A stretch of 64,000 nt of DNA, taken from assembly GCF_003259525.1 (NCBI RefSeq), contig NZ_QLLO01000004.1:186001-250000 (forward strand). Reading direction: 5' to 3'. Below are positions 43,714 to 45,487 of this stretch, one piece after another; position 1 is the first letter of the stretch; each line of letters starts with the position of its first letter. The notes below the pieces were generated by a model. That model searched no databases, was not told where the DNA came from, and worked only from the letters and a program-made list of their open reading frames with translations. The position numbers and the translations under genes are program-made. This DNA comes from Olleya aquimaris (GTDB taxonomy: Bacteria; Bacteroidota; Bacteroidia; Flavobacteriales; Flavobacteriaceae).

Positions 43714-43741
43714 CCTGCTAATTTGATTAGCAGGTTTTTTT
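43714..43741 (+). terminator. Terminator of hppA
   Basis: Perfect 9-bp stem CCTGCTAAT (43714-43722) / ATTAGCAGG (43726-43734), 3-base loop, then a T-run. It overlaps the -33 box of the next gene. Confidence 0.87.
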
Positions 43742-43754
43742 TATATTATATTTG
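43722..43754 (+). promoter_or_regulatory. Promoter of the App1-like gene, inside the hppA terminator
   Basis: TTTG (43722-43725), 21 bases, then TATATTTG (43747-43754). The -33 box forms the terminator loop. The -7 box ends 4 bases before the ATG at 43759, predicting a leaderless or nearly leaderless mRNA. Confidence 0.7.
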
Positions 43755-43758
43755 GGTA

Positions 43759-44763
43759 ATGAGTTGGTTTAAGAAAGATCCTTTACAAATAATTTCGTTT
43801 TTAAGTTATGGTACCTCAAGTCATTTTTACCATCGTGGTCGTGCGTTGGAAGATGAAACTATAGACTTAGATCAAAAAAGCTTATTTAATCTTATTTTAA
43901 ATACTTGGAAGCGTTTTGAAACAGACGAAATCAAGCACACTAAACTCAAAATTACCTTACCCAATAATCGGGTTTTCTATTCGCAAACCGATAAGGATGG
44001 CTATTATAAAGTAGAAGAAACTCTAACAGATTTAGACCAGTTAATTAATGATGAAGGATGGTTGATTTTTGAAGTGTCTTACGATGAAGCTACTTTAAAA
44101 AGAACCATACAAAATCAAAACAGATTTCCAGCAGAATTACTGATACCTAGAGAAGATTCTGATTTTGGTGTTATTAGTGATATTGACGATACCATTTTGC
44201 ATACTGGTGTGGTGTCCATTTTAAAATGGCGAGTCATATACAATACTATTTTTAAACATGCTCTAAATAGAATTCCGTTAGAAGGTGCAGCAGAATTTTA
44301 TCATTTATTGCACAAAGGACCTGCTGGTACTAAGGCTAATCCTATTTTTTATGTCAGTCATAGTCCATGGAATTTATACCGTTATTTAGAGTTTTTTTTA
44401 AGAACCAATAACTTCCCTAAAGGACCTATTTTACTACGTAGTTTTAGAAATATGTTTAAAAAGAAAACTGCAGACACTAAGCCACAAAAGCAATTAGAGA
44501 TAGAAAATATTTTAAAGACTTATCCAAATTTACCTTTTATATTAATTGGCGATAGTGGAGAGCATGATCCTGATATTTATCTAGAAATTGTAAATACTTT
44601 TCCAAACCGTATTAACGCAGTTTATTTAAGAAGTGTTGATGATAAAAAGAAAATAAATCGTGTCAATGCCTTGCTGGATGCTTATGAAAAAACACCAGTT
44701 TTATTAGTTAATTCTAGTAAAGACGCTATTGCACATGCTAAACGTAATGGTCTAATTAAGTAG
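43759..44763 (+). CDS. App1-family (DUF2183) phosphatidate phosphatase-like protein
   Basis: 334 residues from the ATG at 43759. Upstream in-frame codons fall in the promoter and terminator and were rejected. The App1 catalytic domain begins at SDFGVISDIDDTILHTGV, which holds the DxDxT phosphatase motif of the HAD superfamily. FYVSHSPWNLYRYLEFFL and ILIGDSGEHDPDIYLEI follow as later HAD motifs. Yeast App1 is a phosphatidate phosphatase, and bacterial substrates are unknown. The N-terminal 140 residues are beta-rich and may bind a partner. It converges on the deoxynucleoside kinase gene with a structured 109-base spacer. Confidence 0.9.
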   Translation: MSWFKKDPLQIISFLSYGTSSHFYHRGRALEDETIDLDQKSLFNLILNTWKRFETDEIKHTKLKITLPNNRVFYSQTDKDGYYKVEETLTDLDQLINDEGWLIFEVSYDEATLKRTIQNQNRFPAELLIPREDSDFGVISDIDDTILHTGVVSILKWRVIYNTIFKHALNRIPLEGAAEFYHLLHKGPAGTKANPIFYVSHSPWNLYRYLEFFLRTNNFPKGPILLRSFRNMFKKKTADTKPQKQLEIENILKTYPNLPFILIGDSGEHDPDIYLEIVNTFPNRINAVYLRSVDDKKKINRVNALLDAYEKTPVLLVNSSKDAIAHAKRNGLIK

Positions 44764-44870
44764 GCCTGCGTTAAGGATGGAAGTGGCATCCTTTTTTTGC
44801 TGCCATATATGGCAAAAAAAGATATAACGGACAGCCTGACCACGCCTTAAAGCGTGGTAACGCCAAAAAA
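44764..44870 (+). ncRNA. Candidate multi-branched structured RNA element
   Basis: Closing stem GCGTTA (44768-44773) / TAACGC (44858-44863) surrounds three hairpins. These are GGATG (44775-44779) / CATCC (44787-44791); T-run and GCCATATATGGC and A-run (44792-44820); and CCACGC (44840-44845) / GCGTGG (44852-44857). The first and third hairpins abut the closing stem directly, as in a stacked junction. It fills the whole convergent spacer. A plain double terminator is the alternative. Confidence 0.5.
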
Positions 44871-44872
44871 AA

Positions 44873-45487
44873 TTAAAATAAACCGTTTATTTCGGCATCA
44901 ATCTTATTAATTATGGTCCCTAAGTCTTCTGGATTAGACACAAAGTCCATATTGTCTACGTCAATTATTAGTAGATTTCCTTTGTCGTAACCATGTATCC
45001 AAGCTTCGTAACGCTCGTTAAGTCGGCTTAAATAGTCAATGCTTATAGAGTTTTCGTAATCACGACCACGTTTATGGATTTGTGATACCAAGTTTGGGAT
45101 AGAACTGCGTAGGTAAATAAGCAAGTCTGGTCCAGCAACAAATCCTTCCATTAAATCAAAAAGTGACTTGTAGTTTTCAAAATCACGATTAGTCATTAAT
45201 CCCATTGCATGTAAGTTAGGTGCAAAAATATGTGCATCTTCATAAATGGTTCTGTCTTGGATAATATCTTTTCCGCTTTCGCGAATTTGAGCCACTTGTC
45301 TAAAACGACTATTTAAAAAGTACACTTGAAGGTTAAAGCTCCAACGCTCCATTTGGTTGTAAAAATCGTCTAAATACGGATTGTCCACAACATCTTCTAA
45401 TTGTGCTTCCCATTTAAAATGTTTTGCTAATAATTTGGTAAGCGTTGTTTTTCCTGCGCCTATGTTTCCTGCTATGGCAACGTGCAT
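44873..45487 (-). CDS. Deoxynucleoside kinase
   Basis: 204 residues. It phosphorylates deoxynucleosides for dNTP salvage. P-loop AGNIGAGKTTLTKLLAKHF, the lid/nucleoside motif QDRTIYEDAHIFA, and the LID-like IHKRGRDYENS are as in dNK/dGK/dAK enzymes. NLQVYFLNSRFRQ is also typical. Which base it prefers cannot be told here. It sits close to thyA, DHFR and a nucleoside transporter. Its start is 2 bases after the stop of the upstream secreted-protein gene, so those two are coupled. Confidence 0.93.
   Translation of the reverse strand: MHVAIAGNIGAGKTTLTKLLAKHFKWEAQLEDVVDNPYLDDFYNQMERWSFNLQVYFLNSRFRQVAQIRESGKDIIQDRTIYEDAHIFAPNLHAMGLMTNRDFENYKSLFDLMEGFVAGPDLLIYLRSSIPNLVSQIHKRGRDYENSISIDYLSRLNERYEAWIHGYDKGNLLIIDVDNMDFVSNPEDLGTIINKIDAEINGLF

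Follow-up and report, generated by a model that had tools for sequence, protein, structure and literature searches.

A Flavo-1 element of Olleya aquimaris may belong to a dispersed, hairpin-forming intergenic repeat of the Bacteroidota

The spacer between two convergent genes of Olleya aquimaris holds a real structured element that contains an above-threshold member of Flavo-1, a known family of unexplained function. The spacer lies in a 64,000-nucleotide stretch (contig NZ_QLLO01000004.1, positions 186,001 to 250,000), which we call the window. What kind of element is this? Rfam classes Flavo-1 as type Gene; sRNA. We put at about 50% the probability that it is not an ordinary small RNA or a terminator but a hairpin-forming repeat, dispersed between the genes of Bacteroidota, that is recognised in single-stranded form and either converted or maintained at its site. 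We favor a single-strand-folding repeat because of strand asymmetry in the pairing, orientation relative to neighboring genes, and exchange of the core, each of which is evidence of moderate strength. New relative to the Rfam model are the outer frame, which extends past it, a second type of core, and the replacement of cores at orthologous sites.

Open reading frame calling confirms the convergent spacer described in the initial annotation, which had been made from the sequence alone. On one side is a gene for an APP1_cat domain protein (APP1-type phosphatidate phosphatase domain; 43723-44763, + strand; PF09949, E 1.5e-50) and on the other a gene of the deoxynucleoside kinase (dNK) family (44873-45487, - strand; PF01712, E 3.4e-55), whose stop codon lies at the low end, 44873. 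A covariance-model search of the window against Rfam gave a single match, to the existing family RF01705 Flavo-1 (E 5e-11 for the window), which that annotation had not named. The match spans the full model (1-76 of 76) at 44758-44845 on the + strand with 61.7 bits, above the curated gathering score of 42, and the conserved bulged helix with compensatory changes likewise identifies the block as a member. The whole element, delimited at 44768-44863 (+) from its sequence and from covariation among 33 full elements, extends past the Rfam match on the 3' side; the model omits the third arm and the 3' side of the closing stem. That stem, GCGTTA/TAACGC, is exact as annotated, 44768-44773 being the complement of 44858-44863. 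Within it, a long bulged helix is formed by the 5' arm AGGATGGAAGTGGCATCC (44774-44791, final C bulged) and the 3' arm GATATAACGGACAGCCT (44821-44837, supported by covariation in the 33 full elements), which together make up helices 2, 3, and part of 4. The T/A pairs of helix 4 lie in the tip (44792-44820), where a T-run (44792-44798) and an A-run (44814-44820) stand on either side of the GCTGCCATATATGGC hairpin; the tip differs in sequence and length from copy to copy. The third arm is a side hairpin, CCACGCCTTAAAGCGTGG (44840-44857), free in sequence between copies and closed in the window by CCACGC/GCGTGG. The block folds better than most shuffled sequences as RNA (z -2.91; 3 of 200 shuffles equally good) and better than all of them as DNA (44768-44863, z -4.74; 0 of 200).

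How well is this fold kept? A first set comprised the 15 copies of the window genome (G000) and 100 better-scoring copies from other genomes; 103 of these 115 are from Olleya, and 113 could be parsed into arms and pairs. Five variable pairs were Watson-Crick in 555 of 565 cells of the parsed copies. When each of the 50 loci was represented by a single copy, the count was 245 of 250, and shuffling gave a mean of 111.6. A scan with the core pattern yielded a set of at least 119 stretches, which shares some Olleya species with the first; here the five pairs were Watson-Crick in 565 of 595 cells versus 284.6 after shuffling (119 places). In 33 full elements, chosen for a GCGTTA-like start with at least five of six complementary closing bases, 99.0% of the cells of a 22-pair fold were paired versus 86.5% in shuffles, 13 of the 22 pairs had changed on both sides, and the covariation score was 0.364 versus 0.123 for shuffled and at most 0.076 for slid alignments. 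Homologues that keep the stems, as the structural reading in the initial annotation presupposed, thus exist, and the conserved, covarying, multi-part fold is indeed more elaborate than a terminator. Applied to the 33-element alignment, RNAalifold recovered the 16 inner pairs, whereas the closing stem was absent from its prediction. In these elements, pre-selected for having a closing stem, compensatory changes occur in it from GC to AU at one pair (5 of 33) and from CG to UA at another (1 of 33); when the 3' side was left unselected, 87 of the 93 copies starting with GxxTTA had a partner matching at five or six of six positions, versus 17.6% of shuffled hexamers. Among 91 copies selected for at least 5/6 complementarity, the stem is GCGTTA/TAACGC in 65 and GCATTA/TAATGC in 10. 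Other 5' hexamers, mostly of two types, are carried by 20 of the 113 copies. The 91 elements have 36 distinct third arms, with a mean terminal stem of 4.4 bp versus 0.64 bp in shuffles and a terminal stem of at least 2 bp in 25 of the 36.

The comparative fold, as read from these alignments, is a closing stem with one long bulged hairpin and one side hairpin. Of the three hairpins first drawn inside the closing stem, the T-run/A-run tip around GCTGCCATATATGGC and the CCACGC/GCGTGG hairpin stand. The remaining one, GGATG/CATCC, does not: it is paired in 72.7% of cells versus 71.7% in shuffles, and its covariation of 0.048 (0.039 shuffled) is reached by 78 of 500 shuffles. Nor is AGCCTGACC single-stranded, as had been proposed; A, C, C, and T of its AGCCT pair with the AGGAT side in helix 2 (100% of cells, 33 sequences), and its last CC begins the third arm. 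Among 100 pair positions in 20 multi-member clusters, 75 never vary, 21 have two or more Watson-Crick types, 5 include G-T, and 1 includes A-C. Sequence comparison shows that change at the variable pairs is nearly always compensatory, and this holds between species within a single orthologous spacer too; one pair within the window's spacer is G-C, T-A, C-G, and T-G in four species.

The impression that similar blocks recur between flavobacterial genes proved correct. The window genome has 15 Flavo-1 matches at E <= 0.001, 13 of them above the cut-off, and the nine other Olleya genomes have 14 to 37 matches apiece. Matches were found in 35 of 60 genomes, the window genome included (above the cut-off in 31), and in none of 14 control genomes; copy number in related genera ranges from 0 to 37. 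The core pattern also occurs in Flavobacterium, Chryseobacterium, Polaribacter, Tamlana, Pedobacter, a Saprospiraceae, and a Bacteroidales bacterium. Carriage as phage or plasmid cargo was rejected: a phage collection gave no match, a plasmid collection one weak match, and IMG/VR three contigs matching by pattern. Two kinds of unusual copy were seen. At L331 (G006:C1:390629 and 392093), two matches lie 1.5 kb apart, the first being of a TAGCCC type common in other genera, and the G005 spacer there differs. A variant with about 45-55 extra, hairpin-capable bases inserted in the 5' arm after GAT is found at L023 (G000:C1:2452-2530), L314 (G006:1422954), L320 (G005:680224), and L330 (G008:966827).

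Some elements have the same frame around a different core that lacks the T and A runs. With one such element as query, BLAST gave between 6 and 16 matches per genome in nine Olleya genomes, frame-only matches included. A strict pattern of the 3' part of the frame found 18 places in G000 and none with a reversed control; by eye, 8 of the 18 have the Flavo-1 core and 10 the second core or a related one. Thirty second-core loci, not reduced to independent ones, are placed << in 12, >> in 3, >< in 4, and <> in 11. At five orthologous sites the core differs between species: G005 and G006 differ at three of them, G008 and G000 at one, and G000 and G007 at the one between umuC and umuD. This last element (L013, L332) lies between genes for an IMS-family polymerase and a Peptidase_S24 (UmuD-like) protein in both genomes. 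In G008 it is absent and the two genes overlap; the spacers of G001, G004, and G009 are short and lack the element, and what G002 has may be a remnant. A deletion in G008 is more likely, because a spacer is present in the other six genomes. Synteny was used to compare 13 unshared sites, none of which shows a clean insertion with target duplication. Seven unshared Flavo-1 sites of G005 and G006 comprise three core exchanges, one rewritten spacer, and three sites whose two flanks could not both be aligned. Six sites of G000 and G008 comprise one without an element in G008, one rewritten spacer, one core exchange, one with a second-core element in both, and two unaligned. Of the 14 G008 loci, 10 align with G000 loci.

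The window's own spacer varies in the same genus. Among the ten Olleya genomes, a clear copy is present in G000, G003, G004, G005, and G006; G007 has a degenerate copy, G008 nothing recognisable, G002 a short remnant of the frame with a terminator, and in G001 and G009 an ordinary bidirectional terminator stands where the element would be (terminators judged by eye). In a tree of the kinase gene G000 pairs with G008 (87/90). Because no inner branch is fully supported, old presence at this site with several losses is likely, short of proven. In G014 the spacer on the dNK side (L071) has, by eye, an apparent frame enclosing another, longer repeat, GTCATTACGAGGAGC...CGCAATGACA.

Which strand folds? 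On the Rfam strand G-T pairs exceed A-C pairs, and it is therefore probably this strand that folds. The ratio is 9:1 in the 113 parsed copies, 5:0 in 91 closing stems selected for pairing, and 23:5 in the pattern set; with one copy per locus it is 4:0 in the Olleya-dominated set, which is not significant, and among unique arms of the pattern set 11:2 (p 0.02). Calculated energies make the + strand stabler in 68 of 79 distinct elements as DNA (8 opposite) and in 54 of 79 as RNA (24 opposite). The window copy itself has no strand preference, at -33.5 on either strand as RNA and a nearly equal -20.5 (+) and -21.1 (-) as DNA. The excess of G-T over A-C and the G.A-rich loops would suit RNA as well as single-stranded DNA.

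The Rfam strand also has a preferred orientation. With mechanically called open reading frames taken as neighbors, the flanking proteins sort the 115 copies into 50 clusters, arranged relative to the Flavo-1 strand as << in 26, >> in 6, >< in 10, and <> in 6, with two known on one side only. Since << exceeds >>, the Flavo-1 strand is mostly antisense in tandem pairs (26 versus 6, p 0.0005), and the 3' end of antisense copies faces a stop codon, frequently 10-60 nt away. In the pattern set, a gene was called on both sides at 100 of 119 places, giving 86 loci (<< 43, >> 25, >< 10, <> 8); here the tandem bias (p 0.038) is weaker than in the 50 Olleya-dominated clusters.

That Flavo-1 is a functional structured RNA, made on the + strand from its own promoter and binding a protein or target with its bulged helix, is a possibility we regard as doubtful. 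The strong covariation, the conserved mismatches, and the excess of G-T on the Rfam strand would all be expected of it, but the antisense placement, the core exchange, and the large copy-number differences would not, and orientation toward the neighbors likewise disfavors a cis-regulatory RNA on the Rfam strand. Of 48 loci, 11 have a promoter motif, TANNTTTG, upstream on the + strand and 8 have it on the - strand, which is no clear enrichment. In the sections on Flavo-1 of the 2021 Flavobacterium psychrophilum transcriptome, which offer no clue to its function, several hits coincide with 5' transcribed regions, but hits fall indistinctly sense or antisense to transcribed regions and many lie outside them (PMC9723704). 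For that species the data are equivocal. The discrete transcript suggested in the initial annotation is not supported. One site does suit an RNA: the copy at L009 (1501-1598) and its orthologues in G003-G008 precede the same 355-aa gene by 50-51 nt, in sense orientation, in 7 Olleya genomes, making it the best candidate for a local cis role. This copy has another lower stem, CTACTCCTG...CAGGTAG, and the tip at this site is greatly different between several of the 7 genomes.

Could the complement strand act instead, past the stop codon of an mRNA, to terminate transcription or protect the 3' end? The 3' boundary is near a stop codon at most loci (the downstream gene is on the opposite strand in 37 of 50 clusters), and at the window's spacer two congeners have the bidirectional terminator seen by eye. 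The pairing, however, does not favor the complement strand, and 6 of 50 clusters lie between divergent genes. Intrinsic terminators are about equally frequent near elements and elsewhere (19/36 versus 26/50 convergent spacers; 18/58 versus 17/78 tandem spacers), a T-run hairpin occurs inside the element at just 2 of 35 loci, and the local hairpin right before the T-run, GGATG/CATCC, where a terminator would have a conserved one, does not covary. An intrinsic terminator is thus disfavored as the main reading, and we judge a 3'-end role in general to be unlikely. Still less probable, and in our estimate very unlikely, is that the element serves a chromosome-organising protein as a duplex-DNA site and is palindromic on that account. 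Dispersal over the chromosome would agree with such a site, as would co-orientation with replication (61 versus 34 in four closed genomes, of which two are closely related and hence non-independent), a bias that is suggestive only. Against it, base identity is free where pairing is kept and G-T exceeds A-C, which point to folding of one strand, and copy number falls to 0 and rises to 37 in related genera.

What known systems does the element resemble? BOX and MITE-type repeats are modular inverted-repeat elements without genes, scattered between genes, and in these respects the element is like them; it differs in that no target duplication or parent transposon was found and in the strictly compensatory evolution of its inner pairs. 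Integron attC sites have RYYYAAC...GTTRRRY ends and stand in cassette arrays. The element shares with them a location downstream of stop codons, an imperfect hairpin whose tip varies, and conservation of structure over sequence, but its GCGTTA...TAACGC ends have the opposite polarity, on which ground attC was rejected, and its copies are scattered beside unrelated housekeeping genes. REP repeats are short, imperfectly palindromic, intergenic, multi-copy, and probably active as a single strand (PMC3733652), all features the element probably has in common with them as far as that account describes them; it is larger and modular, and no GTAG tag was seen. A REP/RAYT system (REPtron) was rejected, because G000 has no Y1 transposase, the only transposase family searched. 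PF01797 (Y1_Tnp) had no matches in G000, in G008, or in the copy-rich congeners G001, G004, and G009 and is present in 11 of 28 genomes searched. G015 has the most among these 28, with 14 matches, some of identical score.

Earlier accounts are brief. The table row for Flavo-1 in Weinberg et al. 2010 reads y, n, n, Bacteroidetes (PMC2864571), and a 2022 review lists the family. In their main-text passages on Flavo-1, these published accounts, the transcriptome included, mention no frame, second core, antisense placement, or core exchange. Literature searches for the element as a flavobacterial palindromic repeat, a Bacteroidetes REP, a Flavobacteriaceae MITE, or the string GGGCGTTACC gave nothing on it among the papers listed.

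The reading as a dispersed repeat draws on copy number, compensatory pairs, the G-T bias, the antisense bias, core exchange, and presence or absence at one site. Against it are the want of a clean recent insertion with target duplication, the element-less site being likelier a deletion; the lack of a linked transposase, from the one family searched; the non-significant strand asymmetry with one copy per locus and the equal folding of both strands of the window copy; and the weaker antisense bias of the wider set. Several copies occupy orthologous places in as many as 8 Olleya genomes, which would fit a local host function as well. As a dispersed repeat, the element would work like REP, BOX, or MITE repeats. 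The Rfam strand would fold, and a putative protein would recognise it in single-stranded form, more probably in DNA than within an mRNA; trans-mobilisation or short-homology conversion may spread, exchange, and homogenise the copies. A bolder version we offer only tentatively: Flavo-1 might be the single-stranded DNA form of an unrecognised dispersed Bacteroidota element without a known transposase, and not an RNA gene, having a constant frame, interchangeable cores exchanged between sites, and a fold kept by compensatory change. If strand, frame, and placement are as found here, the sRNA label for Flavo-1 is probably misleading. In Olleya there are sites that differ between close species in having a copy, lacking it, or carrying a swapped core, and recognition and movement of Flavo-1 are therefore directly testable.
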